Source of the DNA: Lachnospiraceae bacterium
GTDB taxonomy: Bacteria > Bacillota > Clostridia > Lachnospirales > Lachnospiraceae
Direction of reading: 5' to 3'
NCBI GenBank assembly: GCA_015057615.1
Contig: SVEA01000169.1
Coordinates: 1-32,444 of the forward strand
Length of the DNA stretch: 32,444 nt
How positions within the stretch are numbered: position 1 is the first letter of the stretch; every line of letters begins with the position of its first letter. Below, in pieces: positions 60 to 30,236 of this stretch. Position numbers and translations under genes: made by a program. The notes beneath the pieces are model-generated. The model did no database searches. It had not been told where the DNA came from and saw only the letters and a list, made by a program, of their open reading frames with translations.

Positions 60-334
60 ATAAAAGCTGATTTATATTATTAACTTCATCAATTTGCATA
101 ATTTATGCATTGATAAGTAATAGGAAATATATTTCATTCGCAACACGTTGTTCACTAAAGCATTGCAAAAAACGCAATACTTGGATTGAAGTACATAATG
201 GTAAGACCACAAAACACGTGGTCTAAATGCCAACGACTTCAAACAGTTGCTTATTAAAATATTGCTTCCTATTATTCCGGTTGTTCCTTGATTTGTGCAA
301 GTCGATGAAGACTATTTGTTAGGAAGGCTTTTGA
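60..334 (-). repeat. Family 1 structured repeat, copy 1
   Basis: About 275 bp, homologous along its length to 3764-4052 and, inverted, to 29965-30236. The right end GGCTTTTGA is the inverted counterpart of the left end (AAAAGC, degraded here). The core has nested stems: TTGAAGT (186-192) with ACTTCAA (236-242), and AGACCAC (204-210) with GTGGTCT (218-224). A further hairpin (GCATTGC / GCAATAC) lies just left of the core. The sense strand is inferred as minus because the imperfect pairs are G-U only on that strand. It sits just before the GerM lipoprotein gene, and I see no protein-coding potential. Confidence 0.85.
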
Positions 335-414
335 AACTCATATCAAGATTAGGTGCGTAAGCGTCTTCTTTCATTAAATTTTGGGCCGTCATTGGCGGCG
401 GAATGCGAGGATGT

Positions 415-1542
415 ATGAAAAAATATATTTTAACAGTATGTCTTATGATGTCATTTTTATTATTGACTGGCTGCGGAAGGAAGAAAAATACGAATCCGCT
501 GGTATCTCCGACACCACAGCCGACTGCTCCTATAGAGTCGGAGCAGCCAAGTCCTACGATAGCAGAGACAGAGGATGGGACCAATGCCGACAGAAAGGAT
601 ACATGGACCATTGCAGATTTTTATCCTGCCTTAGAAGATATGGAATATGTCTATAAAGGGGTTGGAATGGAGTATGCGTCCTTTACCGTATTCATGGACT
701 ATTTTGATAAGGATACGAACCGTTATCAGACACGAACCGATAATGGCGGTACGGTAACTGCTAAGGTTATGGAGATAAAGGACGGTAAGCTGTCTGTAAT
801 TAAATCCGTCGGGGAAGCTTATTACAGAGATAATTTACTGGATACCGAAGCAGAGAAGGATGTCGAGGTTCTATTGATGGAACCCTTGGTGCGAGGAACC
901 CGTTGGACTTTGCCGGATGGAAGTGAACGGTATATTTCGAATATCAATGTGAAGGTTGAGACGGATTTAGGAACCTATGATGCGATTGAGGTAAAAACAG
1001 AAGGAACGGATTCCACAACGAAAGATTACTATTCACCCGGAGTGGGCTTGATTAAATCTATATTTCGTTCCGAAGAGTATGAGGTTTCATCTACTTTAAG
1101 TGAAATTAAGACGAATACGCCATATAAACTGGCAGTGGATTTTTACTATCCGGAACAGGATGAGAAGATCCATGTCGTTCAAAAAGAAATCACGTTCCAT
1201 ACCAATGATGTAACCAGGCTGGTATTAGAAAAGGCTGTGAAAGAGAAGGTTCTTAATAATAATTATGTACCGCTGATTAGCACCAATACGAAGATTAACT
1301 CGATGTATCTTGGCAAAGATCATATCGTCTATGTGGATTTTTCGAAAGAATTAATTGAGGAAATGGAAGCAGGATCCGGCTTTGAGCAATTGATATTGCA
1401 GAGCATTACGAACACCTTAGGTAGCTACTATGGTGTAAAGGAAGTCTGTATTACCGTGGACCAGAAACCATATGAATCGGGACATATCCTATTAAAGGAA
1501 GGGGAAACCCTTAAGGTCAATATGGATTTGGTTGTGCGATAA
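415..1542 (+). CDS. GerM-domain lipoprotein (spore germination/sporulation type)
   Basis: A 375-residue protein read from ATG 415, which follows a GAGGAT Shine-Dalgarno; an in-frame ATG at 403 has no good ribosome site. The N-terminus is a lipoprotein signal, KKYILT then a hydrophobic run and LTGC, so Cys of LTGC would be lipidated and the protein anchored outside the membrane. A Ser/Thr/Pro-rich linker follows. The C-terminal half (about residues 240-375) fits a GerMN domain: YVDFSKEL, then GSGFEQ, SITNTL and a final V-x-V-x-VDQKP block. GerM-type proteins act in sporulation and germination of Bacillus and relatives; the role here is inferred from the domain. It is monocistronic, lies downstream of repeat copy 1, and faces the reductase gene convergently across a shared hairpin. 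No convincing promoter was seen. Confidence 0.8.
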   Translation: MKKYILTVCLMMSFLLLTGCGRKKNTNPLVSPTPQPTAPIESEQPSPTIAETEDGTNADRKDTWTIADFYPALEDMEYVYKGVGMEYASFTVFMDYFDKDTNRYQTRTDNGGTVTAKVMEIKDGKLSVIKSVGEAYYRDNLLDTEAEKDVEVLLMEPLVRGTRWTLPDGSERYISNINVKVETDLGTYDAIEVKTEGTDSTTKDYYSPGVGLIKSIFRSEEYEVSSTLSEIKTNTPYKLAVDFYYPEQDEKIHVVQKEITFHTNDVTRLVLEKAVKEKVLNNNYVPLISTNTKINSMYLGKDHIVYVDFSKELIEEMEAGSGFEQLILQSITNTLGSYYGVKEVCITVDQKPYESGHILLKEGETLKVNMDLVVR

Positions 1543-1585
1543 GAAGGATGCTTCCGAAATAAGAGTTTATCATAGAAGGTTCTAC

Positions 1586-1632
1586 CATAAAATGAGGGTC
1601 TGTGATTTTTTATCACAGACCCTCATTTTATG
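1586..1632. terminator. Bidirectional terminator between convergent genes
   Basis: A near-perfect inverted repeat of about 21 bp (CATAAAATGAGGGTCTGTGA and its complement) around a T-rich loop. The AT-rich stem base lets it serve both the GerM gene (+) and the flavoprotein reductase (-). Confidence 0.85.
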
Positions 1633-1721
1633 ATTGGCGTGCGTTATAGCGCAGCCTATATTCATTTTTCATGAGAAGTATATTCTTCTGTTAAGAATTT
1701 GTTTCCCGGTCAATTATCAAA

Positions 1722-3494
1722 TTATTTGAGATAATCGATTGCGGAAGCAGCGGCAATACGTCCGAATACTACGATATCTGCAACTGCATTTCCACCGATA
1801 CGGTTTCCGCCGTGGATACCTCCGGTAACTTCGCCAGCTGCGAATAATCCGGAAATTACATTGCCCTCTGTATTCATAACCTCAGCCTGAGTATCAATTT
1901 CAAGACCGCCCATGGTATGGTGAACACCGGGAGCAATTTTAATTGCGTAATATGGTCCGGTTGTAAGGTCATAATCCATACCGGTAGTTCTATCGAACTC
2001 GGCATCCTTTTTGGCTTCTACCGCTTTATTCCAAGTAGAAAGTGTTTCAGCAAGTGTTGCACTATCTACATTAATTAATCCGGCTAATTCTTCGATGGTA
2101 TCTGCCTGAACAGTAATACCATTTTCAACATAGCTATCAATTGCACTTAAACGATCACGTAATGCTTGGTCGAAAACGATGTATGCATAGTTTCCTTCCT
2201 GCTTTACAATCGCATCGGATACAACATCACGGGTTAATAATTCATCGGTAAAACGCTTACCGGATTGATTTACAAGAATCGCACCTTCACCACGAACACC
2301 TTCGGTTATCATAATACTGGTTGTCTGTTCTACGGTCGGGTGAGTCTGAATCTGTTCCATATCTACAAGATTAGCACCAACGGCTTCTGCCATAACAATA
2401 CCGTCACCGGTTGCACCGGGAGCGTTCGTTGTTACATAGCCAGCTAATTCCGGTCTGTATTTGGTATATAATTCTTCATTGGCACCAAATCCACCGGTTG
2501 CTAAAATAACGGCTTTTGCATTAATCGTATAATCCGTGCTGTCGGATTCTGCTTTTACACCAACGGCTTTACCATTATCCATCATAAGTTCTGTTGCTTT
2601 TGTATTCAACATTACGTCGATATCTAATTTATCCAGATCCTTGGAGAATACATCAACCAGATAAGAACCAACTGCAGCGCCGCCTTCCGGTCTATGGCAG
2701 CGTTTATTGGTAGCACCGCCGGAGAATGTAACCTCGGAAAGCGGAGCGCCGATGGACTCAAGCCAATCAATAGCATCTGCTGAATTTTCAGCTAAAGTTC
2801 TAACCAGATCAATGTTATTCAGGTTATGTCCGCCTGTCATGGTATCTTGAACAAATTGCTCTACGCTATCTTTAATGCCCAGTTTTTCCTGTACTTTGGT
2901 TTCGGCAGCATTCATACCACCGGTTGCTTTTACTGAGTTACCGCCAAGCATAGGCATTTTCTCAAGGATTACTACATTTAAACCGGCATTTTTTAATTCG
3001 ATCGCAGATGTCATACCGGCACCGCCGCCACCAATTACGACAACATCATAATCTAAGGTTTCCTCTGTTTTCGCGGTTTCTGCTTCCTCTGCTTCTGCCG
3101 GAACTAATGCAGATACATCTACACCGGCACTCTCTAATGCATTGGTAACAGCAGCCTTAACAGCATCGCTGGATACGGTGGCACCGGATACGCCATCTAC
3201 ATCAACGGTTTGTTTTTGCACCATTAATGCCGGCAGAGTTTCAACAGCAACCGATCCAATGTTCTCTGTTTCGCTATCACCGACAACGGTGATATCTTCG
3301 ATTTTATCATCGGATAATTTTACTGTAGCAACGATGTCGCCGCCAAAGCCCTTAGCAGTACCTTCATAGGTTCCGGCTTTGAACTTAGCATTCGTTGTCT
3401 CAGGATTTGTCGTGGTTTCATCTTTTGTTTTCCCGCATGCAGCAAGTGATAAAGTCATTACTGCAATCATCAACAAAGCAAATATTTTCTTCAT
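1722..3494 (-). CDS. Secreted FMN/FAD flavoprotein reductase (fumarate/urocanate reductase family)
   Basis: 590 residues. The signal peptide ends in the lipobox LAAC (Cys20), so this is probably an extracellular lipoprotein. Residues about 38-125 are an FMN_bind domain with the ApbE target motif DGVSGAT (Thr106 would carry FMN). Residues about 147-590 are an FAD-binding succinate dehydrogenase/fumarate reductase domain: VVIGGGGAG dinucleotide motif, KRCHRPEGG, EGVRGEGA, HHTMGG and HGGNRIGGNA. These match the substrate-binding His/Arg and catalytic Arg positions of soluble fumarate reductases. No heme motif is present, so electrons must come from another carrier. The substrate (fumarate, urocanate, cinnamate-type or other) cannot be fixed from motifs. 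Known relatives use extracellular acceptors and depend on ApbE, which is encoded at 8415-9503. The ATG at 3494 follows a perfect AGGAGG in a duplicated leader. Confidence 0.87.
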   Translation of the reverse strand: MKKIFALLMIAVMTLSLAACGKTKDETTTNPETTNAKFKAGTYEGTAKGFGGDIVATVKLSDDKIEDITVVGDSETENIGSVAVETLPALMVQKQTVDVDGVSGATVSSDAVKAAVTNALESAGVDVSALVPAEAEEAETAKTEETLDYDVVVIGGGGAGMTSAIELKNAGLNVVILEKMPMLGGNSVKATGGMNAAETKVQEKLGIKDSVEQFVQDTMTGGHNLNNIDLVRTLAENSADAIDWLESIGAPLSEVTFSGGATNKRCHRPEGGAAVGSYLVDVFSKDLDKLDIDVMLNTKATELMMDNGKAVGVKAESDSTDYTINAKAVILATGGFGANEELYTKYRPELAGYVTTNAPGATGDGIVMAEAVGANLVDMEQIQTHPTVEQTTSIMITEGVRGEGAILVNQSGKRFTDELLTRDVVSDAIVKQEGNYAYIVFDQALRDRLSAIDSYVENGITVQADTIEELAGLINVDSATLAETLSTWNKAVEAKKDAEFDRTTGMDYDLTTGPYYAIKIAPGVHHTMGGLEIDTQAEVMNTEGNVISGLFAAGEVTGGIHGGNRIGGNAVADIVVFGRIAAASAIDYLK

Positions 3495-3545
3495 TTTGTC
3501 CTCCTAATATGCAATTTATTTTTGTCCTCCTAATATGCAATTTAT
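3494..3545 (-). repeat. Perfect 26-bp tandem duplication of the reductase ribosome-binding region
   Basis: 3494-3519 is repeated exactly at 3520-3545; the match runs one base further. Each unit contains AGGAGGAC on the minus strand, so the mRNA carries two Shine-Dalgarno sequences. Only the proximal one is correctly placed before the ATG at 3494. The distal one could start a tiny TTG reading frame whose TGA overlaps the ATG. Confidence 0.95.
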
Positions 3546-3557
3546 TATTACTAGGTG

Positions 3558-3586
3558 AATATAACATCTAGTTAAAAAAATATCAA
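3558..3586 (-). promoter_or_regulatory. Sigma-A promoter of the flavoprotein reductase
   Basis: On the minus strand: -35 TTGATA (3581-3586), 17-bp spacer, -10 TATATT (3558-3563). The block GTTATATTCACCT is almost identical to that at the promoter of the lipoprotein gene (10679-10707). Confidence 0.85.
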
Positions 3587-3701
3587 GTTTTTTTCAGACG
3601 AAACATTAACAAAGATGCATATGAAATGATTGTATTTTTAGACATGTTATATTGTGGTAAATGATATTTTTCGATAAAAAAAACTTTTATGACAAAGGAT
3701 A

Positions 3702-3730
3702 TTTACAAAAGTGTAAGAATATTATATAAT
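3702..3730 (+). promoter_or_regulatory. Sigma-A promoter upstream of the hydEGF leader
   Basis: -35 TTTACA (3702-3707), 17-bp spacer, -10 TATAAT (3725-3730). It directs transcription rightward through repeat copy 2 and a strong terminator (4251-4286) before hydE, giving a leader of roughly 730 nt. It may instead drive a short non-coding RNA ending at the terminator. Confidence 0.75.
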
Positions 3731-3763
3731 ATATGTGAAATTATTAACGAGTGATTTTAAGTA

Positions 3764-4052
3764 TCAAAAGCCGATTTTTAAAATAAACTTCATCAATTTG
3801 CACAATGTATGCATTGATGAATAATTTGAAACATATTTCATTCGCAACATGCAGTTCCGCAAAGCATTGCAAAAAACGCAATACTTGGATTGAAGTACGT
3901 AATGGTACATAAGACCGCAAAACACGTGGTCTAAATACCAACAACTTCAAACAGTTGGGCAAACAGTTACGCATAAAAATACGTTGTAAATTACTAGGTT
4001 TTTCTTTGATTTGTTCAATTTGAAGAAGACGATTTGTTAGGAAGGCTTTTGA
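3764..4052 (-). repeat. Family 1 structured repeat, copy 2 (most complete termini)
   Basis: 289 bp bounded by TCAAAAGCC and its inverse GGCTTTTGA; the two ends remain similar inward for about 40 bp. Stems: AAGCATTGC (3862-3870) with GCAATACTT (3878-3886); TTGAAGT (3890-3896) with ACTTCAA (3944-3950); and inside that TGGTAC with ATACCA and the AAGACC/GGTCT hairpin. Imperfect pairs are G-U if the minus strand is transcribed. No obvious target duplication was found. It lies within the transcribed leader of hydE, in antisense orientation. Confidence 0.9.
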
Positions 4053-4250
4053 CAAATCACGAATATAAGTCGTGCTGACTACAAGGGTGCGCCCGAGTAA
4101 GAAGGCGAGAGAATATTACGGAATACTCCTAGCTTCATTGTATGTGACAGGATTGCAAAGAACCGTTTTGTTTTTATACTAGGCGGACGCTTCTTCACTT
4201 TCTGACGTGTACCAATGGAGGATTGATTTTTATAAAAGAGCTATGCCGAT
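4053..4250. other. Leader segment of unknown function before hydE
   Basis: No credible gene. A small hairpin CACGA/TCGTG lies at 4057-4073. The rest matches no riboswitch I recognise. A short open stretch ending near 4200 lacks a start and a ribosome site. It may be the body of a non-coding RNA that starts at about 3737 and ends at the 4251-4286 terminator. Confidence 0.3.
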
Positions 4251-4286
4251 TCCCTATGCCTTTTTACTACGCATAGGGATTTTTTT
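4251..4286 (+). terminator. Strong intrinsic terminator upstream of hydE
   Basis: A perfect 9-bp stem TCCCTATGC (4251-4259) / GCATAGGGA (4271-4279) is followed by seven T (4280-4286). It lies between the 3702-3730 promoter and hydE, so it either ends a separate small transcript or works as an attenuator of the hyd operon. Confidence 0.85.
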
Positions 4287-4433
4287 ATCGTATAAAAATT
4301 GCGTCCTATACGATGAAAAAACTCCATGCGAACATAGTTCGCATTGGGATGACGCACTCGCACGTATTGTATTTTGCCAGCGATGCTGGCCGCGCTCGGC
4401 GCGAGAGTTTCGCAAGCGAAACTCTTTCTTGCT
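4287..4433 (+). repeat. Family 2 structured element, copy A
   Basis: Starts exactly at the end of a terminator T-tract. Stems in order: ATCGTATA (4287-4294) with TATACGAT (4307-4314); ATGCGAAC (4326-4333) with GTTCGCAT (4337-4344), unique to this copy; a conserved box GCACTCGCACGTA; GCCAGC (4376-4381) with GCTGGC (4385-4390); AGAGTTTCGC (4404-4413) with GCGAAACTCT (4416-4425); then TTCTTGCT. Related copies lie at 13607-13737 (-) and 32192-32325 (+). Confidence 0.88.
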
Positions 4434-4466
4434 GATCTGATTAATAAGAGAAAGTGAGTTACCCAT

Positions 4467-5513
4467 ATGGCAGAATTGAGACCGCTGATTGACCGGTTAG
4501 AATCGCAGCAAATGCTGTCAAAGAAAGAATTTGTTACCTTACTGACAGGGATTTCTGCAGAGGATACCAAGTATCTTCGGGAAAAAGCCCGAAGGGCAGC
4601 AAGGAAACACTTTGGCAATCGAATTTATACCAGAGGATTGATTGAATTTACGAACTATTGCAGAAATGACTGCTATTACTGTGGCATTCGCAGGAGTAAT
4701 ACCAGGGCTTGCCGGTATCGACTTAGTAAGGAGGCGATATTAGATTGCTGTAAAGCCGGATATGCATTAGGATTTCGTACCTTTGTCCTGCAGGGTGGGG
4801 AAGATGCAAAATATTCGGATGATCTTATGGTGGATCTGATTAAAGAGATTAAAAAGAGTTACCCCGATTGTGCCTTGACCTTATCTATCGGAGAGAAAAG
4901 CTATGAAAGTTATCTTAAGTTTTATAAAGCAGGCGCTGACCGGTACCTGCTAAGGCATGAGACCGCAAATAAAGCCCATTATAGCATGCTCCATCCGCCG
5001 GAGCTTAAGGCGGAGAACAGAAAGCGCTGCCTGTTTGAACTGAAGGAGATCGGCTATCAGGTCGGCGCCGGTTTCATGGTGGGAGCTCCTTACCAGACGG
5101 CAGAGGATATAGCGGAGGATCTTCTTTTTCTAAAAGAGCTCTCTCCCCATATGATCGGAATCGGACCTTTTATTCCCCATCATCAGACACCCTTTGCCGA
5201 TCGAGCTCCCGGGACGATGAAGCAGACCCTGCTGGTGCTTGGCATCCTCAGGCTAATGTTTCCCAAGGTACTTCTACCGGCAACGACGGCGCTCGGGACA
5301 ATTCATCCCTTAGGACGTGAGAAAGGTATCCTATCCGGTGCCAATGTTCTTATGCCCAATCTTTCACCGACAACGGTTCGTAAGAAATATGAGCTTTATG
5401 ATAATAAGATCTGTACCGGAGACGAAGCGGCAGAATGCAGATCCTGCCTTGCACGAAGAATGCAGGAGATCGGTTATGAATTAGCCGTTGACCGGGGAGA
5501 TTACAAACCCTGA
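4467..5513 (+). CDS. hydE: FeFe hydrogenase H-cluster radical SAM maturase HydE
   Basis: 348 residues, the usual length for HydE. The radical-SAM cluster motif CRNDCYYC has Cys65, Cys69 and Cys72 in the CxxxCxxC spacing, preceded by RGLIEFTNYC as in HydE/BioB-like enzymes. The block LQGGEDAKYSDD and the segment GAGFMVGAPYQT are typical of the TIM barrel. HydE acts in the cytoplasm in building the two-iron subcluster of FeFe hydrogenase with HydG and HydF, both encoded directly downstream. The start ATG 4467 has only a weak purine-rich site (GAAAGTGAG), which could mean low translation or dependence on the upstream structured leader. No hydrogenase structural gene is in the window. The symbol rests on motif and operon context. 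Confidence 0.93.
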   Translation: MAELRPLIDRLESQQMLSKKEFVTLLTGISAEDTKYLREKARRAARKHFGNRIYTRGLIEFTNYCRNDCYYCGIRRSNTRACRYRLSKEAILDCCKAGYALGFRTFVLQGGEDAKYSDDLMVDLIKEIKKSYPDCALTLSIGEKSYESYLKFYKAGADRYLLRHETANKAHYSMLHPPELKAENRKRCLFELKEIGYQVGAGFMVGAPYQTAEDIAEDLLFLKELSPHMIGIGPFIPHHQTPFADRAPGTMKQTLLVLGILRLMFPKVLLPATTALGTIHPLGREKGILSGANVLMPNLSPTTVRKKYELYDNKICTGDEAAECRSCLARRMQEIGYELAVDRGDYKP

Positions 5514-5566
5514 TAGAAAAAAGAAGCAGGGAAGATTGAAGTATATATGAAAAAGAATGTATAAAA

Positions 5567-5635
5567 AGTTTGTGTCTGCATGGGATTCACAAACTCTGTT
5601 ATGCGCAAAAAGCCGCGCAGAAAGGACGAAAAATT
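5567..5635 (+). promoter_or_regulatory. Family 3 stem-loop leader, copy X (before hydG)
   Basis: AGTTTGTG (5567-5574) pairs with CACAAACT (5588-5595). A second small hairpin TGCGC/GCGCA follows, then the ribosome site GAAAGGA and ATG 5636. The whole block aligns with 30434-30503 before the xylosidase gene, including a shared CCGCG[CT]AGAAA stretch. Located inside the hyd operon between hydE and hydG. Confidence 0.7.
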
Positions 5636-7054
5636 ATGTATGATATCAAATCAAAGAAAGCGGAAGAGTTTATTAATCATGAGGAAATCTTGGACACATT
5701 GGAATATGCCGTTGCCAATAAGAACAACCGTGCGCTGATTGACAGCATTCTAAAGAAAGCGGAGGAGATGAAAGGAATCTCCCATAGGGAAGCTGCGGTA
5801 TTATTGGAGTGTGACTTAGAGGACGAGGTGCAGAGGATGGAGCTGCTTGCTAAGAAAATTAAGCAGCGCTTCTATGGGAACCGTATCGTTATGTTTGCCC
5901 CTCTTTATCTATCCAATTATTGTGTCAATGGCTGCTTGTATTGTCCCTATCATTATGTAAATAAGCATATTCCCCGTAAGAAGCTGACCCAGGAGGAAAT
6001 CAAAAGAGAAGTGATCGCTCTTCAGGATCTGGGGCATAAGCGGCTTGCACTGGAAGCCGGGGAAGATCCGGTAAATAATCCGATTGAATACATATTGGAT
6101 AGTATTCATACCATTTACTCGATCAAGCATAAGAACGGTTCCATCCGCAGAGTGAATGTGAATATCGCTGCCACGACCGTTGAGAATTACCGAAGGTTAA
6201 AGGAGGCTGGAATCGGAACCTATATTCTTTTCCAGGAAACCTATCATAAAGAAAATTATGAAAAGCTGCATCCGACCGGTCCGAAGCATAACTATGCCTA
6301 CCATACGGAAGCGATGGACCGTGCGATGGAAGGCGGGATTGATGATGTTGGGTTAGGTGTCCTATTCGGATTAAATATGTATCGGTACGATTTTGCAGGA
6401 ATCCTGATGCATGCGGAGCATTTGGAGAGTGCATTGGGCGTGGGACCACATACCATAAGCGTTCCCCGAATCCGAACGGCGGATGATATTGATCCATCCA
6501 CATTTAAGGATGCAATATCGGACGATATCTTTGCGAAGATTGTAACGGTTCTAAGAATTGCAGTACCCTACACGGGTCTTATTGTATCGACAAGGGAATC
6601 TCAAAAAAGCAGGAGACGGGTTCTCGACCTTGGTGTGACGCAAATCAGTGGTGGCTCCAAAACCAGCGTTGGGGGATATGACCAGCCGGAATTGGAGGAG
6701 GAAAGCTCGGCGCAGTTTGATCTGGCGGACCGAAGGACCTTGGATGAGATCGTGAACTGGCTGTTAACACTGGGGTATATTCCGAGCTTCTGCACCGCCT
6801 GCTACCGGGAGGGAAGAACGGGTGACCGCTTTATGCGTCTTGTGAAATCCGGCCAGATCGTCAACTGCTGTCAGCCGAATGCGTTGATGACGTTAAAGGA
6901 ATATTTGGAGGATTATGCTTCTCCAGACACAATTAAAAAAGGAGAAGCACTTATTGAGGAAGAGCTGTTAAAAGTACCGAATGATAAGGTGCGGACTCTG
7001 GCAAAGGAGAACTTAATCCGTATCCAGCAGGGGCAGCGGGATTTCCGGTTCTAA
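5636..7054 (+). CDS. hydG: FeFe hydrogenase H-cluster radical SAM maturase HydG (tyrosine lyase)
   Basis: 472 residues from ATG 5636, chosen because it follows GAAAGGA and matches the usual HydG start; an upstream in-frame start at 5570 would run through a conserved leader hairpin. The radical-SAM motif is C96-x3-C100-x2-C103 (YCVNGCLYC). The C-terminal auxiliary cluster motif is seen as CTACYREGRTGDRFM followed by CCQPNA. HydG cleaves tyrosine to supply the CO and cyanide ligands of the H-cluster via an Fe(CO)(CN) synthon; this is known for the family. It lies 122 bp downstream of hydE and 38 bp upstream of hydF on the same strand, so one operon is likely. Confidence 0.95.
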   Translation: MYDIKSKKAEEFINHEEILDTLEYAVANKNNRALIDSILKKAEEMKGISHREAAVLLECDLEDEVQRMELLAKKIKQRFYGNRIVMFAPLYLSNYCVNGCLYCPYHYVNKHIPRKKLTQEEIKREVIALQDLGHKRLALEAGEDPVNNPIEYILDSIHTIYSIKHKNGSIRRVNVNIAATTVENYRRLKEAGIGTYILFQETYHKENYEKLHPTGPKHNYAYHTEAMDRAMEGGIDDVGLGVLFGLNMYRYDFAGILMHAEHLESALGVGPHTISVPRIRTADDIDPSTFKDAISDDIFAKIVTVLRIAVPYTGLIVSTRESQKSRRRVLDLGVTQISGGSKTSVGGYDQPELEEESSAQFDLADRRTLDEIVNWLLTLGYIPSFCTACYREGRTGDRFMRLVKSGQIVNCCQPNALMTLKEYLEDYASPDTIKKGEALIEEELLKVPNDKVRTLAKENLIRIQQGQRDFRF

Positions 7055-7092
7055 AAATCGGGAAAGAAAAGAAAGAGGGAACGGAGAGGTAT

Positions 7093-8289
7093 ATGAGTAT
7101 AAATGATACACCGAGAGCGAATCGTCTGCATATCGGTATCTTTGGAAAACGAAACAGCGGGAAATCAACGCTTATTAATGCTTTGACCGGACATAATACG
7201 GCGCTGGTTTCGGAGATTGCCGGTACGACAACTGATCCGGTATATAAGACAATTGAAATCTATGGAATCGGACCCTGTGTGCTGATTGATACGGCAGGAT
7301 TTGATGATACAGGATATCTGGGGCAGATGAGAGTGGAGAAGACCAGGACAGCGATGGAGAAAACAGATATTGCTCTGATCGTATGCTGCGATGAGAATAT
7401 CGACCAGGAACAGGAATGGATCCATGCGTTTCAGGTAAGAAACACGCCGGTGATTGCAATCATTAATAAAATAGATCAGTTGCAAACTACCGATAGAATA
7501 CGGAATAAGCTTTATGAGATCTGCAAAGAGGAGCCGGTTAAGATCAGTGCAGCCTCGAAAACCGGTATCGATAAGATCCGGGAGGAAATCATCCGGAAGC
7601 TGCCGGACGATTATGATACAAGGAGTATTACAGGAGAGCTGGCAGCAGAAAATGACCGGGTTCTCCTTGTAATGCCACAGGATATCCAGGCACCGAAGGG
7701 CAGACTGATCCTTCCCCAGGTGCAGGTTCTACGGGAGCTGCTGGATAAGAAATGTATCGTGTCAAGCTGTACCGCGGACCGGCTGGATCAGGCTCTTGTG
7801 AGCTTTGTAGAGCCGCCGAAGCTGATTATAACAGATTCGCAGGTATTTTCTATGGTATACGAAAAGAAGCCGGCAGAAAGTCTCCTGACCTCCTTCTCGA
7901 TATTATTTGCTGCATACAAAGGGGACATTGACTATTTTGTAGGGAGCGCGGCGGTAATCGGACGCTTGACCGAGAAATCGAAGGTACTGATCGCGGAAGC
8001 CTGTACCCATGTTCCGCTAAAAGAAGATATCGGCAGGGATAAACTGCCGAGGATGCTAAGAAAGAAAATCGGAGAAGGATTGACCATCGTAAACGTCAGC
8101 GGAAATGACTTTCCGGAGGATCTATCGGGTTATGACCTTATCCTTCAATGCGGCGCCTGCATGTTTAACCGGAAGTATGTGATAAACCGGGCTGCGAAGG
8201 CGAAGGCGCAGAATGTGCCGATGACGAATTATGGTGTGGCGATCGCTTATCTGTCCGGAATATTGGATAAAATAACATTTCCAGGGTAA
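7093..8289 (+). CDS. hydF: FeFe hydrogenase H-cluster maturation GTPase HydF
   Basis: 398 residues. N-terminal Ras-like GTPase domain: P-loop GKRNSGKS (18-25), switch region GTTTDP, DTAG, and NKID. A middle dimerisation domain and C-terminal iron-sulfur scaffold follow. The cluster ligands of the family motif CxHx(n)HCxxC appear as Cys304, His306, Cys353 and Cys356, but the His before the CxxC is Gln352 (QCGACM). HydF is the scaffold on which the two-iron subcluster is assembled before transfer to the hydrogenase. It follows hydG closely and the operon ends at the 8296-8348 terminator. Confidence 0.94.
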   Translation: MSINDTPRANRLHIGIFGKRNSGKSTLINALTGHNTALVSEIAGTTTDPVYKTIEIYGIGPCVLIDTAGFDDTGYLGQMRVEKTRTAMEKTDIALIVCCDENIDQEQEWIHAFQVRNTPVIAIINKIDQLQTTDRIRNKLYEICKEEPVKISAASKTGIDKIREEIIRKLPDDYDTRSITGELAAENDRVLLVMPQDIQAPKGRLILPQVQVLRELLDKKCIVSSCTADRLDQALVSFVEPPKLIITDSQVFSMVYEKKPAESLLTSFSILFAAYKGDIDYFVGSAAVIGRLTEKSKVLIAEACTHVPLKEDIGRDKLPRMLRKKIGEGLTIVNVSGNDFPEDLSGYDLILQCGACMFNRKYVINRAAKAKAQNVPMTNYGVAIAYLSGILDKITFPG

Positions 8290-8384: not shown

Positions 8385-8445
8385 TCAAAAAGCCTTCTTA
8401 ACAAATCGTCTTCATCAAATCGCAAAAAGCAAGGGAAAACTTAAG
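8385..8445 (+). repeat. Family 1 terminal remnant overlapping the apbE 3' end
   Basis: TCAAAA-AGCC at 8385 and the next 60 bases match the left end of copy 3 (29965 onward), including CTTCATCAA and AAAACTTAAG. The rest of the repeat is missing. The stop codon and last codons of apbE lie inside it. Confidence 0.75.
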
Positions 8446-9503
8446 TATCCTTCCTCCAATTTCTCTTTGATATAATCAGGAAAGTGTTCGCTGTATCGGA
8501 TTTCCCCATCCGGCAGGATCCACATAGCTTCCGCATCAGGAAGACTTTCAATAAAAGCCTTTCCTTTTTTGAAGGGCATATTATAGATCGCCGTCGATAA
8601 GGCATCCGCCCTGCCGGAATCCTCGCAAAGTATGGATACTGCGGTAAAATATTCGGAGGGCATTAAGGTCTTCGGATCAATGATATGATGATATATTTTA
8701 CCATCGACAGTATAATAGCGTTCATAATTACCACTTGCCACCAGAGACATATCAGTTAATCCCATCGTATGGATACTTGTCTGTTCCGAGGTTTTATCAG
8801 GATTCTGGATGCCAACGCTCCAAAGCTCTTTATCCTCTCCTTTCGTACCTGCTGCGCGGGTATTCCCGCCAACACTAAGAAGAAAGTCGGAATATCCCTG
8901 CTCCATTGCTATACGGGCAACCTGCTCTGTTGCGTAGCCCTTTGCAATTGCACCGACATCCAGGCTCATATGTTCCTCCGGTAGATAGACGCTGGAGTTC
9001 TCTTCATCAATTATGAGCTTATCGATGTCCGTATAAGCATCTGCCTTTATTAAATCCTCCATCGGAGGAAGCTTTGCATTCGCGGGATCATCAATTCCGG
9101 CGGTACGGTAATCATGCCAGATCTCCAATACGGGACCGAGGGCAATATTCACGGTGCCATCCGTAAGCTGATACATTTCCTTTGAAAAGAGCAGCAGATC
9201 AAGAATCCGTTGATCCACCTTTACAGGAGCGATACCGGCATTATCATTAATGGTCTTGATATTATTAACCCCTTCATAGAGGTCATATTTATCATATAAT
9301 TCATGGTACTCTTTCAGATTATCGTAGATCAGCTGGGAAAATTCTTTAAAGTCCTCTTCACTGTCCGAGTACGCAACAATTTCCGTTACGGTATTAAACA
9401 GAATGAGAAAGCTTGCCTGGTATTTTTTTGGCTTATGCATACCACAGGAAGTCACACTCAGCATAGTAAGGATCGTAATAATAGTAAGTATTCGTCTTTT
9501 CAT
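8415..9503 (-). CDS. apbE: FAD:protein FMN transferase ApbE (flavinyltransferase lipoprotein)
   Basis: 362 residues. Lipoprotein signal MKRRILTIITILTMLS with lipobox VTSC (Cys20), so it faces the cell exterior. Family landmarks: TDGTVNIALGPVLEIW, the conserved DVGAIAKGYA, SVGGNTRAAG, the HHIIDPKT block and GRADALSTA near the metal site. ApbE moves FMN from FAD onto a Thr in the target motif, in substrates such as FMN_bind domains. Two candidate substrates are nearby: the reductase at 1722-3494 (DGVSGAT) and the lipoprotein just upstream (two DLKSSVT motifs). The usual Gly after DPxT is Leu here (DPKTLMP). About the last ten codons and the stop lie within a family 1 repeat remnant, so the native C-terminus may have been replaced. 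The ATG follows AGGAGTTGATAAAGA. Confidence 0.93.
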   Translation of the reverse strand: MKRRILTIITILTMLSVTSCGMHKPKKYQASFLILFNTVTEIVAYSDSEEDFKEFSQLIYDNLKEYHELYDKYDLYEGVNNIKTINDNAGIAPVKVDQRILDLLLFSKEMYQLTDGTVNIALGPVLEIWHDYRTAGIDDPANAKLPPMEDLIKADAYTDIDKLIIDEENSSVYLPEEHMSLDVGAIAKGYATEQVARIAMEQGYSDFLLSVGGNTRAAGTKGEDKELWSVGIQNPDKTSEQTSIHTMGLTDMSLVASGNYERYYTVDGKIYHHIIDPKTLMPSEYFTAVSILCEDSGRADALSTAIYNMPFKKGKAFIESLPDAEAMWILPDGEIRYSEHFPDYIKEKLEEGYLSFPLLFAI

Positions 9504-9620: not shown

Positions 9621-10628
9621 TTATTTTGCAGCTAAGCCGGCTCTGTCGACTACAGTTAAGAATTCACCAATTGCTATCGTTACGGAACTCTTAAGATCAT
9701 CGCTTGTTGCTTTGCCTGAGTCGTCTAAAGCGATACCCTTTACATCAGCAACGGTCTTGCCTTTAATGTAATCCGTAAATGCTTTCGCCTGCTCATACCA
9801 CTCTTTACCGATCGAGGAAGCTTTCTTCATATCATAAGCATCGCCCAATTCTGTCTTTGTTTTAAAATCAGCGCCTGATAAATCAGAGGTAATGATACCT
9901 TCGGCAGAGAATTTTACATCTGACTGAGATGCATCAATGATACTGCTGGTGATTTTGCCGCTCTTATTTAAGGTAACAACGCCGTAGTGTGTATAAGCCT
10001 GTGCGAAACCTTCTGCATCAGCCGTTGCATTTACACTGTGGCTGCCAATTCCAGAGAAGATACCTAAACCAAGCTTATCATCTGCCTGGGCGCCTAAGTC
10101 CTGTGCGTTGTTAACAGCTTTTTCAATTGCACTGACCATAGTATCAACACTCATGGTTACAGAGCTCTTTAAATCTTCCTCTGCGGGATAGCCTTCTTCT
10201 AAAGCAATCCCCTTTACTTCTGCCACGGTCTTACCTTTTACATAGTCAGCAAAAGCATTTGCCTGCTCAAACCATTCCTTACCGATTGAGGAAGCTTTTT
10301 TCATATCATAAGCATTACCAAGTACTTGTTTGGAATCGAAAGTAGCTGCAAGATCCGTTGTGATTTCACCAGCGTTATTGAAATTGATCATTGTCTGTAC
10401 TACATCGATTGCGCAGTTTTTGATAACACCCTTTGCGTCAACAAGAACGGCTACAGCAGTAGAATCAACCTGTGCCAGTCCGTCTGTGTCCCCCGCATCT
10501 TTCGAACTGTGATCTGCGGATGAAATTACTGCTAAACCTGTTTTAACTGTTTCTGATTTCGAGCTACATGCTGTAAATGAACTCATAACAAGGGCAACAC
10601 TTATAACCAAAGCAAAAATTTTCTTCAT
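9621..10628 (-). CDS. Lipoprotein with two FMN_bind-like repeats, probable ApbE substrate
   Basis: 335 residues. Signal peptide with lipobox FTAC (Cys21). Two homologous repeats, about residues 31-175 and 190-330, share blocks such as AYDMKKASSIGKEW, then a GKTVA-EVKGIAL segment. Each ends in DLKSSVT (152-158 and 311-317), which aligns position by position with the flavinylation motif DGVSGAT of the neighbouring reductase: Asp, two residues, Ser, small, small, Thr. The inference is that Thr158 and Thr317 carry FMN, making a surface electron shuttle like two-domain FMN lipoproteins of Gram-positive extracellular electron transfer. The missing Gly-Ala makes this uncertain. apbE follows on the same strand and the promoter resembles that of the reductase. 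Alternative: a non-flavin lipoprotein of unknown role. Confidence 0.72.
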   Translation of the reverse strand: MKKIFALVISVALVMSSFTACSSKSETVKTGLAVISSADHSSKDAGDTDGLAQVDSTAVAVLVDAKGVIKNCAIDVVQTMINFNNAGEITTDLAATFDSKQVLGNAYDMKKASSIGKEWFEQANAFADYVKGKTVAEVKGIALEEGYPAEEDLKSSVTMSVDTMVSAIEKAVNNAQDLGAQADDKLGLGIFSGIGSHSVNATADAEGFAQAYTHYGVVTLNKSGKITSSIIDASQSDVKFSAEGIITSDLSGADFKTKTELGDAYDMKKASSIGKEWYEQAKAFTDYIKGKTVADVKGIALDDSGKATSDDLKSSVTIAIGEFLTVVDRAGLAAK

Positions 10629-13606: not shown

Positions 13607-13737
13607 GTAACAAAGAGTTTACCTTGGCAAACTCTCTTGCCGAGCGCGTTCTGCCGCAGGCAGATAAATACCTTACGTGCGAGTGCGCATCCTTAGCGGA
13701 GCTTTTTTGCCGTATAGGCCGCAATTTCATTATACGT
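13607..13737 (-). repeat. Family 2 structured element, copy C (inverted)
   Basis: Read on the minus strand it starts at the T-tract of the 13738-13773 terminator. CGTATA/TATACG (13731-13736 with 13711-13716) is followed by the conserved GCGCACTCGCACGTA box. TCTGCC/GGCAGA (13664-13650) replaces GCCAGC/GCTGGC of the other copies. AGAGTTTGCC/GGTAAACTCT (13635-13614) replaces AGAGTTTCGC/GCGAAACTCT. Pairing is kept while the sequence changes. Confidence 0.85.
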
Positions 13738-14121: not shown

Positions 14122-14159
14122 AAGAAATATCTTTGATCTTGATCGCCATCATTGACTTG

Positions 14160-14361
14160 GTTACTGTTCACACCCCATGTATACCATGCTATGATTTCGT
14201 CAAATGTATCCGAATCGGTGACGCTTCCGCTTAGTTGCATTACGTAGCGGTACATAAGGCTCCAAAATACGGAGCCAAAGTACCAACGAATGCAAATACT
14301 CCTTATCGGATATCATTTGTCGAAATCATATTATAGACTTTGCCCATGTGTGAACAGTAAC
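14160..14361. mobile_element. 202-bp MITE with 14-bp perfect terminal repeats and 8-bp target duplication
   Basis: Ends GTTACTGTTCACAC (14160-14173) and GTGTGAACAGTAAC (14348-14361) are perfect inverted repeats. The identical 8-mer TTGACTTG flanks it at 14152-14159 and 14362-14369. The interior is an imperfect palindrome (ATGATTTCG...CAAATG arms near 14187-14213 and 14308-14333). The centre holds nested stems TTGCATT/AATGCAA (14235-14241, 14289-14295), GGTAC/GTACC (14249-14253, 14280-14284) and GGCTCC/GGAGCC (14258-14263, 14271-14276). This matches the family 1 core plan. It carries no transposase. The 8-bp duplication fits several IS families, so the donor cannot be named. Confidence 0.9.
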
Positions 14362-14443
14362 TTGACTTGTTCTCCATCCCGTATCCATACTGTAAAATGG
14401 GGTAAGGAGGTGAACTGACAGCACGGTATGGCAAACTTTTACA

Positions 14444-22896: not shown

Positions 22897-22911
22897 AGAG
22901 GAAGAACCTGC

Positions 22912-23169: not shown

Positions 23170-23186
23170 TCTTAAGGAGAAAAGGT

Positions 23187-24797: not shown

Positions 24798-24900
24798 CAA
24801 AGGCTGTAATACTATAGCTGCTAGTACAATCATCCGAATTGACAATGAAGATGTATTTATTACGCATTAGCTACATTGCTGAAATGTCTTGCAGTGATAT

Positions 24901-24938
24901 GCTTTTAAACTACTCTCATTCCTTGTTTAAAAGCTTTT
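24901..24938 (+). terminator. Terminator of the galactitol operon, overlapping the hydrolase 3' end
   Basis: A perfect 10-bp stem GCTTTTAAAC (24901-24910) / GTTTAAAAGC (24925-24934) followed by TTTT. The right arm lies within the last codons of the convergent hydrolase gene. Confidence 0.75.
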
Positions 24939-25971: not shown

Positions 25972-25991
25972 TTCTCACCTTCTTTAATTTC

Positions 25992-26450: not shown

Positions 26451-26484
26451 ACTTTTCACACCTCCAATGATTAATATTATCAAT

Positions 26485-26513
26485 ATTTTAACTTACCTTA
26501 ATTGTCTTATCAA
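26485..26513 (-). promoter_or_regulatory. Promoter of the XRE-AbrB / hydrolase operon
   Basis: On the minus strand -35 TTGATA (26508-26513), 17-bp spacer, -10 TAAAAT (26485-26490). Confidence 0.88.
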
Positions 26514-26584
26514 GCAAGTAACGGCAACATTTAATTATAAATCATGTTAACGTCAGTTGCTTAAAGTTGTTTCGTCTTATGTAT

Positions 26585-26619
26585 AAAAGAGCTGTTTATT
26601 TTTGACAACAGCTCTTTTT
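26585..26619. terminator. Orphan terminator hairpin
   Basis: AAAAGAGCTGTT pairs with AACAGCTCTTTT (26607-26618), with T or A runs on both sides. No intact gene ends here; it may belong to lost flanking sequence. Confidence 0.7.
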
Positions 26620-26632
26620 AGTTTCTTCTGTT

Positions 26633-26894
26633 CTAAGTCCAACTTATCAAACAGATGCCATATATAGGACAGCATGTGTTTTATTCGACGAATTATGGGA
26701 TGGAAGCCCAATTCTCAATCTGGGAATCCGGACTTCTAAATTAGTATCCAATGACACGGCTCGCCAAATTAATCTTTTTAGTATGGAGACTGATGAAAAA
26801 AAAGGATATGCTGGATCGCGCCATTGATAAAATTCTGGATCATTATGGTTCTACTGCAATTCAAAGAGCCAGCTTGGTAAAACCGCAGAAATAA
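26633..26894 (+). pseudogene. dinB/umuC-type Y-family DNA polymerase, 3' remnant
   Basis: The plus strand reads YQTDAIYRTACVLFDELW, then SPILNLGIRTSKLVSND, QINLFSMETDE, and after a shift in a run of eight A near 26798-26805 continues as DMLDRAIDKILDHYG and STAIQRASLVKPQK before TAA at 26892. This is the C-terminal little-finger part of a Y-family polymerase (QxxLF, then the AIDKI..YG..AIQRA ending). The catalytic N-terminal two thirds are missing and no start is present. The one-base shift is a homopolymer slip, or possibly a sequencing error, but the truncation makes it non-functional regardless. Confidence 0.8.
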
Positions 26895-26924
26895 GAAGAA
26901 GGAAAAATAGCAAAATAAGAATCG

Positions 26925-26968
26925 AGTGGGAGAAAGTTTTCTTAAGTAAATGAAAATTTCCTCCCACT
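26925..26968 (-). terminator. Hairpin after the ccdA-tlpA gene
   Basis: AGTGGGAG-x-AA-x-TTTTC pairs with GAAAATTTCCTCCCACT. On the minus strand it is followed by a loose T-rich stretch (CGATTCTTATTTTG), so it probably ends the CcdA-TlpA transcript. Confidence 0.65.
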
Positions 26969-26987
26969 GCTAATTAGTCTTGAATTT

Positions 26988-28286
26988 TTATTCCGTCGCT
27001 GCCAGAGCCTGCTCAATGGCACGATATATCTGAGATTTTGTCATAATTCCGGTGGCATATCCAAAGAAGTTACCTTCCTTATCAATCAAAAAGGTAGTGG
27101 GGAATGCCGAAACAAAATAATTCTGTAAGATTTCTCCAGTTTCGTCAAAGACGGTCGGGAAGGTATATTTGTTCTTCTCAAGATATGCGATGACCGATTC
27201 CTTTGATTCATCGGCATTATTCGGATAATCTGTACTGGAGGGATTCGAAACCCCAAGGATGATGACATCCCCCTGGTTGCTGTCAAGTTTTTTATAGACC
27301 TCTTCAATATTCGGCATTTCCTTCTGACATGGCGGACACCAGGTCGACCAGAAGTTTAGAAATACAACCTTTCCCTTGTAATCCGAGAGCGTATGCTCGT
27401 TACCGAATTGATCTGTAAGGGTAAAATCAAAGGCTTTTGTCTTCGGCTTCTCATTCTCTTTACTGTCCCCGGTATTGCCGGCTTCGGAAGCGGTATGGTT
27501 ATCCTCCGGCTTCTCAGGCTGTAGATCCTCTTCCTCTCTGGTTACCGTCGGGGGAGATAATATACTTAAGTATTTGGTAACGCCGTTCATCCAGCCGGTA
27601 AATGTCATGATTCCAATTATAATCAGAAGAATGCCGCCAGCCTTCACAGTATATTTTAGCAGCTTTTTATATACATTTAAGAAATTAAGTACCTGGGTTG
27701 TAAAAAGCCCGAGGAGCAGGAAGGGGATAACAAAACCTAGGGAGTAAACCAGCACCAGCAAATTACCCGTTAAGGAACTGCCGGTTCCGGATGCCAGAAT
27801 GAGTACGGAGGAGAGGGCAGGACCTACGCAGGGAGTCCAGGCAAAGCTAAAAGTAAATCCCATAGCAAATGCAAGCAAAGGATTCGCTTCCCGATCACCG
27901 AGGGGAATTTGAAATTTTCTTTCCCGCTGTAGAAAATTTATATCCAATAATCCGACCTGATACAGTCCCAGGATAAGAATCAGGATGCCTCCGATTCGAG
28001 AAAATAGCAATTGGTTGCTTTTAAAAAAAGTGCCCAGGGCAGTAAAGGACATACCTAGAATAAAAAAGGCAAAAGAAATCCCAAGGACAAAGCATAAGGT
28101 ATGGAAAAAGACTTTCTTTCTTTGAAATATAATGGTACCGTCTTCCTTTACCTGTTTCGCATTCCCGGACAGATAGCTGATATAGATGGGAATTAAGGGG
28201 ATAACACAGGGCGAGAAGAAGGACAGTAACCCTTCTAAAAATACGAGGATAAAGCTGATACTTTCTGAGGGTGTAAGCCCTTGCAT
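26988..28286 (-). CDS. CcdA-TlpA fusion: membrane thiol reductase with extracytoplasmic thioredoxin domain
   Basis: 432 residues. N-terminal half (about 5-225) is CcdA/DsbD-beta-like with six or so membrane spans and the conserved FFSPCVIPLIPIY and FAWTPCVGP, each with one redox Cys. A Glu/Asp-rich linker (about 235-275) leads to a TlpA/ResA-type thioredoxin domain with WCPPC (in FWSTWCPPCQKEMPNIEE) and a cis-Pro region FPTTFLID. The membrane half passes electrons from cytoplasmic thioredoxin to the outer domain, which keeps extracellular cysteines reduced. Usually these are two proteins; the fusion is a known arrangement in clostridia. Start ATG 28286 behind AAGGAGGTC. Confidence 0.9.
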   Translation of the reverse strand: MQGLTPSESISFILVFLEGLLSFFSPCVIPLIPIYISYLSGNAKQVKEDGTIIFQRKKVFFHTLCFVLGISFAFFILGMSFTALGTFFKSNQLLFSRIGGILILILGLYQVGLLDINFLQRERKFQIPLGDREANPLLAFAMGFTFSFAWTPCVGPALSSVLILASGTGSSLTGNLLVLVYSLGFVIPFLLLGLFTTQVLNFLNVYKKLLKYTVKAGGILLIIIGIMTFTGWMNGVTKYLSILSPPTVTREEEDLQPEKPEDNHTASEAGNTGDSKENEKPKTKAFDFTLTDQFGNEHTLSDYKGKVVFLNFWSTWCPPCQKEMPNIEEVYKKLDSNQGDVIILGVSNPSSTDYPNNADESKESVIAYLEKNKYTFPTVFDETGEILQNYFVSAFPTTFLIDKEGNFFGYATGIMTKSQIYRAIEQALAATE

Positions 28287-28317
28287 ATGGTTGACCTCCT
28301 TATATTGGGGTATAAAA

Positions 28318-28346
28318 ATAGTATAATAGTAATCTTATTTTAGCAA
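28318..28346 (-). promoter_or_regulatory. Promoter of the ccdA-tlpA gene
   Basis: On the minus strand -35 TTGCTA (28341-28346), 17-bp spacer, -10 TACTAT (28318-28323). The rest of the gap up to about 28510 shows nothing I can assign. Confidence 0.7.
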
Positions 28347-28519
28347 GTAATTTTATATTTAATGTAACATTGTCACACGGTATAAAATATTCATACGAAT
28401 CATCTTTATACCTATTCTGGAAAATTCGTGCCCGCTGGGGGGTATTTAAAAGCGGCCTTGTCCATGCTTTTTACGATTCATTCTATCCGGTACAAGTTAC
28501 GTAAGTGCTTCAAAATGGT

Positions 28520-28548
28520 TTGACAATCAAAGGAAAGGATGTTAAAAT
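28520..28548 (+). promoter_or_regulatory. Consensus promoter of the marR-type gene
   Basis: -35 TTGACA (28520-28525), 17-bp spacer, -10 TAAAAT (28543-28548). Confidence 0.9.
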
Positions 28549-28550
28549 GG

Positions 28551-28579
28551 TTAAAAATATTTAATTAAAATATTTTAAG
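28551..28579. promoter_or_regulatory. AT-rich palindrome, probable MarR operator
   Basis: TTAAAAATATTTAAT and its near-inverse AAAATATTTTAA lie directly after the -10, where autoregulatory MarR sites usually sit. Confidence 0.55.
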
Positions 28580-28598
28580 TAATTGAGGAGGGAGAACA

Positions 28599-29015
28599 GT
28601 GCTGGAGAATGAGTTTGAAAAATTATATCTGAAATTTCGGTATAATTATTGTAAAAATCTTTTTTCTGAGGTGAATGAAAGCTTGAATCCAACGGAAGCC
28701 TATTGCTTGGAAGCAATTTTTTTGCTTGATCGGCCTACCGTACGTGAATTTGCGGAATATATTCATATTTCCCAACCAAATGCAACGTATCGAATTAATA
28801 ACCTGATTAAGAAAGGCTGTATTCGAAAGGTCTTATCCCCGGATGATAAAAGAGAATACCACCTGGAAGTAACGGATAAATTTCTTAAGGCTTATGGTGC
28901 AAATGCATCTTTTAATGCACAGCTAATGAAGGGAATTCGAGAAAAATTTAGTAAAGAAGAAATTGAATTATTAGAAAATATGCTACACAAAATAGTGGAA
29001 GAGATCATGATATAG
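28599..29015 (+). CDS. MarR-family winged-helix regulator
   Basis: 138 residues, GTG start 28599 after GAGGAGGGAG. Winged-helix core: LDRPTVREFAEYIHISQPNATYRINNL (recognition helix region; trimmed reading) followed by the wing KVLSPDDKREYHLEVTDK. N- and C-terminal helices (1-30, 105-138) form the dimer interface. Most likely an autorepressor acting at the palindrome under its promoter. The effector and other targets are unknown; degV lies 103 bp downstream and may be co-transcribed. Confidence 0.87.
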   Translation: MLENEFEKLYLKFRYNYCKNLFSEVNESLNPTEAYCLEAIFLLDRPTVREFAEYIHISQPNATYRINNLIKKGCIRKVLSPDDKREYHLEVTDKFLKAYGANASFNAQLMKGIREKFSKEEIELLENMLHKIVEEIMI

Positions 29016-29070
29016 TAAAAACGGAACGGGGAAATGCAAGCTTGCTTGCAATGTGCAATCGGAGCCAAAG

Positions 29071-29095
29071 ATTATGAGTGCTCTTTACTCATGAT
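29071..29095 (+). promoter_or_regulatory. Hairpin between the marR and degV genes
   Basis: TTATGAGT pairs with ACTCATGA-type sequence around GCTCTTT. No T-tract follows, so it is not a standard terminator; it sits in the degV leader. Confidence 0.4.
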
Positions 29096-29118
29096 AGAAT
29101 AATAGGAAGGAAAAGAAT

Positions 29119-29961
29119 ATGGCGATTCAGATTATTACGGATTCGACTTCGGACATTGGTCGTGAAGAAGCGGAAAAAATGGGAGTTACAATTGTCCCGT
29201 TAAAAGTATTATTTGGTGAGAAAGAGTACCGCGAGGGAATTGAAATTACAATGGATGACTTTTATCAAAAGCTCGCCCGGGCAGAGAAGCTTCCTACAAC
29301 ATCCCAGCCTGCCCCGGATGATTTTTTAGGGCATTTTCAGAAGGCAAAGGAAGTAGGGGATAGTGTAATTGTACTTCTCATCGCAGGTAAATTCAGCGGT
29401 ACGACACAGAGTGCGGTGATTGCAAAGGAAATTGCGGAATACGATGCGATTTATATTATTGACAGCTTGACTGCGATAACCGGATTACGCCTTCTGGTGG
29501 AGCATGCAGTAAAACTTAGAGAACAACATTGGGAGGCAGAGAAGATCGTAGCTGCCTTGGAAAAATCAAAGGATAGAATTGTTTTGATGGCAATGGTAGA
29601 TACGCTAGAATACTTACACAAGGGCGGAAGGTTATCAAAATCATCCGCAGTTCTTGGATCTCTATTAAGATTCAAGCCCATACTTTCTGTAAAGGATGGA
29701 GTTATTGGAGTGGTAGGGAAAGCGAGAGGAACGAATAAAGGAATTGCCAGAATGCTGGAAATCATGGAGGAGATGGGAGAGATCGATCCTGCCTATCCGG
29801 TTACCTTCGGATACACAGCAGAGGACAGTAAAGGGCTCCTTTTAAAGGAAAAAGTAACGGAAAAATATAATTTGGGCGAAACGGCAATCTATCCCGTTGG
29901 ATGCGTTGTCGGTACCCATGTGGGACCCGGCGCCTGTGTCATTACCTATATAAGAAAATGA
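29119..29961 (+). CDS. DegV-family fatty-acid-binding protein
   Basis: 280 residues, typical length. DegV landmarks: IITDSTSDIG at the N-terminus, TTSQPAPDDF, the LIAGKFSGTTQSA loop, the DTLEYLHKGGRLS segment and RFKPILSVKDG. DegV proteins bind a fatty acid and act with fatty-acid kinase (FakA-like) in phospholipid metabolism in Firmicutes; which acyl chain is used is unknown. A repeat of family 1 starts four bases after its stop codon, so its natural 3' end and terminator may have been altered. Confidence 0.92.
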   Translation: MAIQIITDSTSDIGREEAEKMGVTIVPLKVLFGEKEYREGIEITMDDFYQKLARAEKLPTTSQPAPDDFLGHFQKAKEVGDSVIVLLIAGKFSGTTQSAVIAKEIAEYDAIYIIDSLTAITGLRLLVEHAVKLREQHWEAEKIVAALEKSKDRIVLMAMVDTLEYLHKGGRLSKSSAVLGSLLRFKPILSVKDGVIGVVGKARGTNKGIARMLEIMEEMGEIDPAYPVTFGYTAEDSKGLLLKEKVTEKYNLGETAIYPVGCVVGTHVGPGACVITYIRK

Positions 29962-29964
29962 GAG

Positions 29965-30236
29965 TCAAAAGCCATCCTAACAAATAATCTTCATCAATTT
30001 GTACAAATTAAGCAAAAACTTAAGTAATAGGAAACTGTATTTTAATGCGCAACTGTTTGAAGTCGTTGGTACTTAGATTACGTATTTTGTGGTCTTATGT
30101 ACCATTACGTACTTCAATCCAAGTACTGCGTTTTTTTGCAGTGCTTTGGGAGCAATGTGTTACGAATAAAATATATTTTCTATTACTTATCTATGTATAA
30201 GTTATGCAAATTAATAAAGTTGATTTTATGAACTAA
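29965..30236 (+). repeat. Family 1 structured repeat, copy 3 (opposite orientation)
   Basis: Starts with TCAAAAGCC directly after degV; its right terminus is degraded. Plus-strand stems: TTGAAGT (30057-30063) / ACTTCAA (30111-30117); TGGTAC (30067-30072) / GTACCA (30099-30104); AGATTAC (30075-30081) / GTGGTCT (30089-30095) with two G-U pairs and loop GTATTTT; AAGTACTGC (30121-30129) / GCAGTGCTT (30138-30146). The arms outside (TAAGTAATAGGAAA-like) are inverted copies of each other, so the whole element can fold back. Confidence 0.9.

Follow-up and report, generated by a model that had tools for sequence, protein, structure and literature searches.

The elements described here are best read, at a probability of roughly 0.55, as an old superfamily of non-autonomous TIR elements of the Lachnospiraceae, in which a folded core would be needed and is most likely a minus-strand RNA. 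The window, that is, the whole stretch of 32,444 nucleotides that was analysed, is contig 157 of the 4.07 Mb draft genome of a Lachnospiraceae bacterium, and contains family A as three elements and a right-end fragment, and family B as a single element (Table 1). A single covarying core without an Rfam match is common to elements whose ends are unrelated and whose duplications differ in length. It spans several genera of mostly gut bacteria, one genome having some two hundred copies, and the selected part (the core) is separable from its vehicle (the ends).

Table 1. Coordinates of the elements in the window and of the flanking target-site duplications.
Feature	Position	Strand	Details
Family A copy 1	61..344	+	Right TIR 326-344; left TIR lost, other repeat from ~22
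Family A copy 2	3753..4060	+	Left TIR 3753-3772; core P3 3888-3950; degenerate right edge placed approximately
Family A right-end fragment	8388..8447	-	Overlaps 3' end of ApbE gene and includes the gene's stop codon
Family B target-site duplication TTGACTTG, left	14152..14159	.	Exact repeat at both flanks
Family B element	14160..14361	+	TIR GTTACTGTTCACAC at 14160-14173 and 14348-14361; P3 with different stem sequences
Family B target-site duplication TTGACTTG, right	14362..14369	.	Exact repeat at both flanks
Family A copy 3, inverted	29958..30256	-	Core P3 30057-30119; edges approximate

The original prediction had placed three full copies of a dispersed element in the window, and these were recovered as direct repeats D1, D4 and D7 together with inverted repeats I1-I3; the TIRs, the right-end fragment, the family B element with the same core and the loss of the left TIR of copy 1 had gone unnoticed. 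Since the copies are mobile TIR elements, their repetition is explained by transposition. Family A carries the TIR GATTTGAGTGTCAAAAGCC and measures 296-310 bp in the copies measured; family B is 202 bp long in the window and 202-205 bp overall. When the central hairpins of the two families are aligned, which requires no gap, the loops and the bulge are common to both and the stems differ with both sides changed. Copy 3 sits directly behind a DegV gene (Pfam), the stop codon of which lies at the element edge.

Several further features were seen in the window. Directly against a family A end lies a different repeat, TTGCGTCTTTTTGCTAACAAAGAGACG (window 22-60; also L006, L022 and L289); the four distinct loci are near contig ends, and the arrangement looks like insertion of another element into the family A TIR. 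A second repeat family occurs at 4353-4433 and 32245-32325 (99% identical over 81 bp), with a partial inverted copy at 13666-13708, and carries the palindrome GAGTTTCGCAAGCGAAACTC. Within the family B TIR, a promoter-like pair directed into the element was spotted by eye (TTCACA-17-TATGAT, 14168-14196). The open reading frame at 9621-10628 contains a 132 bp internal duplication (80% identical), and three consecutive genes at 4467-8289, two of the radical SAM type and one with HydF domains, resemble [FeFe]-hydrogenase maturation genes, among which the names HydE and HydG presumably apply.

The core, described in the plus-strand orientation of copy 1, has the form of a three-way junction of a long palindromic stem, P1 (median 46 aligned positions in the 105 of 122 cores that were measurable), a tiny hairpin, P2, and a hairpin with recurring loops, P3. 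P2 is a mini-hairpin of two pairs. Its motif, which fixes the first and last loop letters and requires purine-pyrimidine pairs, is present in 162 of 209 cores and absent from 47; both pairs are Watson-Crick in 155 of the 162 matches, and in 161 the minus strand reads GNRA at the loop. With the loop left free, a mini-hairpin is found at P2 in 91 of 112 dereplicated cores, 73 of these having a GNRA-type loop. In P3, helices are interrupted by a bulge (A then purine, 182/210) and an ATAA/TAA internal loop, and the commonest heptaloop is AAAATAC (81 of 210 cores). The loops belong to the pattern by which most loci were picked, and their constancy is therefore partly a matter of choice; they were also seen again in loci that only the covariance model had picked up.

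In family A of the source genome, P2 bears an inserted hairpin; an insert of this type is missing from some copies (L069, L070). This is the site of a pair switch described in the original prediction, and in minus sense the hairpin does read AAGTATTGC/GCAATGCTT in copies 1 and 2 and AAGTACTGC/GCAGTGCTT in copy 3. Among 31 of the 32 prepared copies of the source genome (L011, which carries an insertion, was omitted), the switching pair is U-A in 14, C-G in 14 and something else in three.

A search of the source genome with the shared-hairpin pattern, allowing up to three mismatches, returned 211 matches against 0 for the reversed pattern, and all 150 covariance-model candidates scored in that genome match (at least 150 copies). 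The covariance model R1, built from 34 distinct family A and B copies, has matches in 18 of 61 relatives, the source genome included, and in 31 of 392 sampled genomes of the order, every one in the Lachnospiraceae. Two of 398 sampled genomes of the phylum match, namely the source genome and another member of its family. Scanning named genomes for the exact pattern gave at least 116 loci, and the matches listed are mostly titled Lachnospiraceae or Mobilitalea, Anaerocolumna, Anaerobium, Coprococcus catus, Butyribacter or Mediterraneibacter. Others listed are titled just Clostridiales or bacterium, with a few MAGs titled Gastranaerophilales or Muribaculaceae, in which we suspect wrong binning. 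Plasmids searched with the family B copy and phages searched with family A copy 2 gave no match, and a search of viral contigs gave two matching stretches.

These elements have the features of MITEs: a length of 50-500 bp without a transposase gene, TIRs, target duplications, dispersed copies and an empty site. The duplications were assessed for families A, B and C. Family A flanks carry exact duplications of at least 6 bp in nine of 20 cases, compared with one of 380 cross-pairs; for family B, exact 8 bp duplications occur in four of eight flanks (at least 6 bp in 1/56 cross-pairs), and for family C, the core-bearing members of which are 211-215 bp long, exact duplications of at least 10 bp occur in eight of 12 (at least 6 bp in 2/132 cross-pairs). 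Duplication lengths are thus 6-9 bp in A, 8 bp in B and 10-14 bp, mostly 11-12, in C, and such a range suggests different transposases. The empty-site comparison covers one site, that of copy 3. The DegV gene that precedes it was found in six of 12 relatives searched, and no core match lies behind DegV in any of the six loci fetched. In two of them, L293 and L295, the gene order is the same, with a DegV-GH43 junction that lacks the element (the next gene being judged by its first bases); with the same next gene and no core match, the place that copy 3 occupies in the window is vacant there. In a third, L294, the same place behind DegV has a long palindrome in which the core is not matched, possibly another element or one without the core.

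The ends to which the core is joined are of several types. Among 193 cores outside the source genome, both ends could be typed in 45 (A 10, B 5, C 24, D 6), one end matches in 26 and neither end matches types A-D in 122; within the source genome both ends were found for 19 of 44 cores. Random places give a background of 28-75 per 20000 for each type, true elements counted in. Type A occurs in genomes titled Anaerobium and Anaerocolumna, B in Mobilitalea, C in Butyribacter and D in Mediterraneibacter, and types A and B coexist in the source genome and in G031. For the 49 cores typed at both ends, a tree accounts for the four labels with three changes, the minimum, compared with 22.8 when labels are shuffled, and each type forms nearly one clade. 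Core and ends have therefore been inherited together, which indicates that ends were exchanged rarely and long ago.

A search of the fetched loci for an autonomous partner returned seven TIR pairs 700-3500 bp apart with a long open reading frame, none of them transposase-like by eye. Six core-less elements of 66-89 bp, fetched from Butyribacter intestini (G062), have the same TIRs as core-bearing ones and look like deletions within the hairpin. In the genome G006 (L245, 930900-932700; also L209 and L062), elements form a loose tandem array with nesting of one inside another, and many have a further P3-like hairpin behind them, outside P1; Tandem Repeats Finder reported no repeats in this array.

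The genes beside the core were compared by clustering 734 open reading frames from 116 loci. The search for a linked gene left a largest cluster of 17 loci, at scattered distances and with no shared family of note; the largest clusters are, by eye, common families such as ABC transporters, and no transposase family is found repeatedly beside the cores. The nearest upstream frame is on the same strand in 59 cases and on the opposite strand in 46, and 39 of the 59 same-strand frames end 64-125 nt before the core motif. For want of a clear orientation bias, the core was not taken to act in cis on a neighbouring gene.

The fold of the core is preserved by something. In alignment A3 (117 matches, 115 distinct, drawn from 100 of the 146 loci L051-L196), 94.9% of cells pair, compared with 68.8% after shuffling, and 20 of 21 pairs have double changes, which total 634 cells where the shuffled control has 179 (sd 16). 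The covariation score is 0.618; shuffling brings it to 0.167, and slid pairings reach 0.105 at the highest. The pattern behind the choice of most of these loci fixes helix 2, and fitting to the structure shaped the alignment, with helices 1 and 3 left free; the short helix 3 beside the loop covaries too. The original prediction of a folded element under selection has thus stood as regards the fold, which is kept with covariation far above both controls, and the covariation it expected in a larger alignment is there. Its further step, from wobble changes to RNA, has not. Copy 3 does show, in the inner stem, the C-G to U-G changes that were pointed out, but in alignment A2 (34 distinct copies of the source genome, 714 cells) G-T cells number 26 and the mirror class A-C 28, a balance expected from plain decay after insertion.

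The strongest rival is that the fold is selected as DNA, with a single-stranded core hairpin or cruciform being bound by a host or transposon protein and helping any transposase. Covariation is nearly pure Watson-Crick: in helix 3 of 210 cores outside the source genome, 1010 of 1050 cells are Watson-Crick, 10 are G-T, 11 are A-C and 19 are other, so that wobbles make up about 2% of cells without strand bias, compared with 7% in 21 tRNAs of the fetched loci (322 Watson-Crick, 24 G-U, 0 A-C). The P1 arms of 105 cores are likewise balanced (G-T 157, A-C 141). A DNA fold would also suit a core that serves elements with unrelated TIRs and has no clear orientation bias relative to genes. Two other counts lean to the plus strand and so speak against a minus-strand RNA: the P1 arms of G006 (G-T 32, A-C 18) and helix 2 (G-T 39, A-C 11), although one such pair in helix 2 is allowed for in the pattern.

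Against a DNA fold, the P2 loops obey the RNA rule for GNRA, including the purine at position 3, and the recognising protein is hypothetical. A coarser count, which includes unpaired bases and covers 83 dereplicated copies, leans towards minus-strand wobbles (40 versus 22 in P3, 76 versus 59 in P1); because 30 6S RNAs counted by the same method lean to their own strand by 70 to 42, the pure-DNA reading of the wobble count is softened. In 85 of 112 cores it is the minus strand that has the lower folding energy. Judged from sequence, minus-strand RNA is somewhat more likely than DNA for the core, being favoured by the GNRA-type loops of P2 together with the more stable folding of that strand, and selection as DNA appears rather doubtful.

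The compensatory changes could also be largely mutational, if one arm is overwritten by a copy of the other through template switching at quasipalindromes, without structural selection. Footprints of template switching have been reported in RNA genes (excerpt of PMC8794818), and such copying would fit the P1 arms of G006, which diverge strongly yet remain complementary (636 Watson-Crick, 32 G-T, 18 A-C and 48 other cells in the 13 of 14 copies that were measurable), as well as the lack of a wobble excess in P1 of the 105 cores. For the P1 arms it may well hold in part. As an account of the whole core it is improbable, since changes in settled copies are left uncorrected (62 of 714 A2 cells are non-Watson-Crick), the short helix 3 covaries, and the GNRA loops and recurring junction motifs are left unexplained. 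Least probable is that these are ordinary MITEs with a hairpin that serves as a terminator or RNase site in neighbouring mRNAs, as for Correia and ERIC: many do lie just behind a stop codon, as the 39 of 59 upstream frames illustrate, and MITE transcripts in other bacteria are cleaved by RNase III (excerpt of PMC10969869), but the 59 to 46 split of strands, and recurring internal loops and a GNRA mini-hairpin that neither a terminator nor a double-stranded RNA site would need, speak against it.

In the preferred reading, that of a superfamily with a needed fold and a minus-strand RNA core, the elements would move by cut and paste through different transposases supplied from other elements. Settled copies would gather mutations, whereas the source copies that spread would retain the fold, from which we infer that the folded core is needed for the success of the element. 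The core would work as a folded RNA from the minus strand, with a GNRA-capped P2 and a three-way junction, and probably as an independent transcript and not as part of a neighbouring gene's message. A more specific version can be offered only tentatively: this RNA, whether selfish or useful to the host, may have persisted in the Lachnospiraceae inside transposable elements by changing its vehicles, of which there are at least four TIR types with probably different transposases, and may act in trans, with the GNRA loop possibly docking into its own P3.

The core elements are a natural test of RNA versus DNA folding in mobile elements, and a caution that covariation by itself is no proof of RNA. 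They are like the structured RNAs of Rfam in having covarying helices, recurring loops, a GNRA-type tetraloop and a three-way junction, and unlike them in being mobile and high-copy, with very few wobble pairs. Rfam 15 at the gathering score gave no match in the window or in L001-L004. A lenient search of window positions 1-400 gave five sub-cut-off matches, all with E of 0.72 or worse, and the same kind of search in ten relatives gave none to the core, the sole match being 6S RNA in L077 (1212-1390), beside the core. No Rfam match to the core thus reaches its cut-off, in keeping with the first impression of an unrecognised family, and the open-licence literature on MITEs, structured RNAs of the Lachnospiraceae and transposon-derived stem-loops yielded nothing recognised as these elements.

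MITEs that fold have been described before, their palindromic ends being the usual explanation. Integron attC sites and the end hairpins of IS200/IS605 keep their shape while the sequence varies, with conserved unpaired bases. The core resembles them in its kept shape and variable sequence; in contrast to them, its elements have TIRs with several duplication lengths and no gene family recurs beside it.

Correia (NEMIS), ERIC, BOX and RUP elements are short, most are described as TIR elements, and their transcripts fold and can affect neighbours (excerpt of PMC10969869). They live in other hosts, and a common covarying core across different TIRs is not described in that excerpt. Among the systems compared, bcr1 and the other repeats of the Bacillus cereus group are alike in size, copy number, mobility, host restriction and fold: in the excerpts cited, they are 100-400 bp long, mostly chromosomal, have mobile features and belong to one bacterial group, with bcr1 high-copy (PMC6542083) and listed with a conserved fold (PMC2267715). 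The mobility of bcr, as these excerpts present it, involves TTTAT motifs and is recombination-like, whereas the core elements have TIRs and duplications of 6-9, 8 and 10-14 bp, and a core common to several TIR types.
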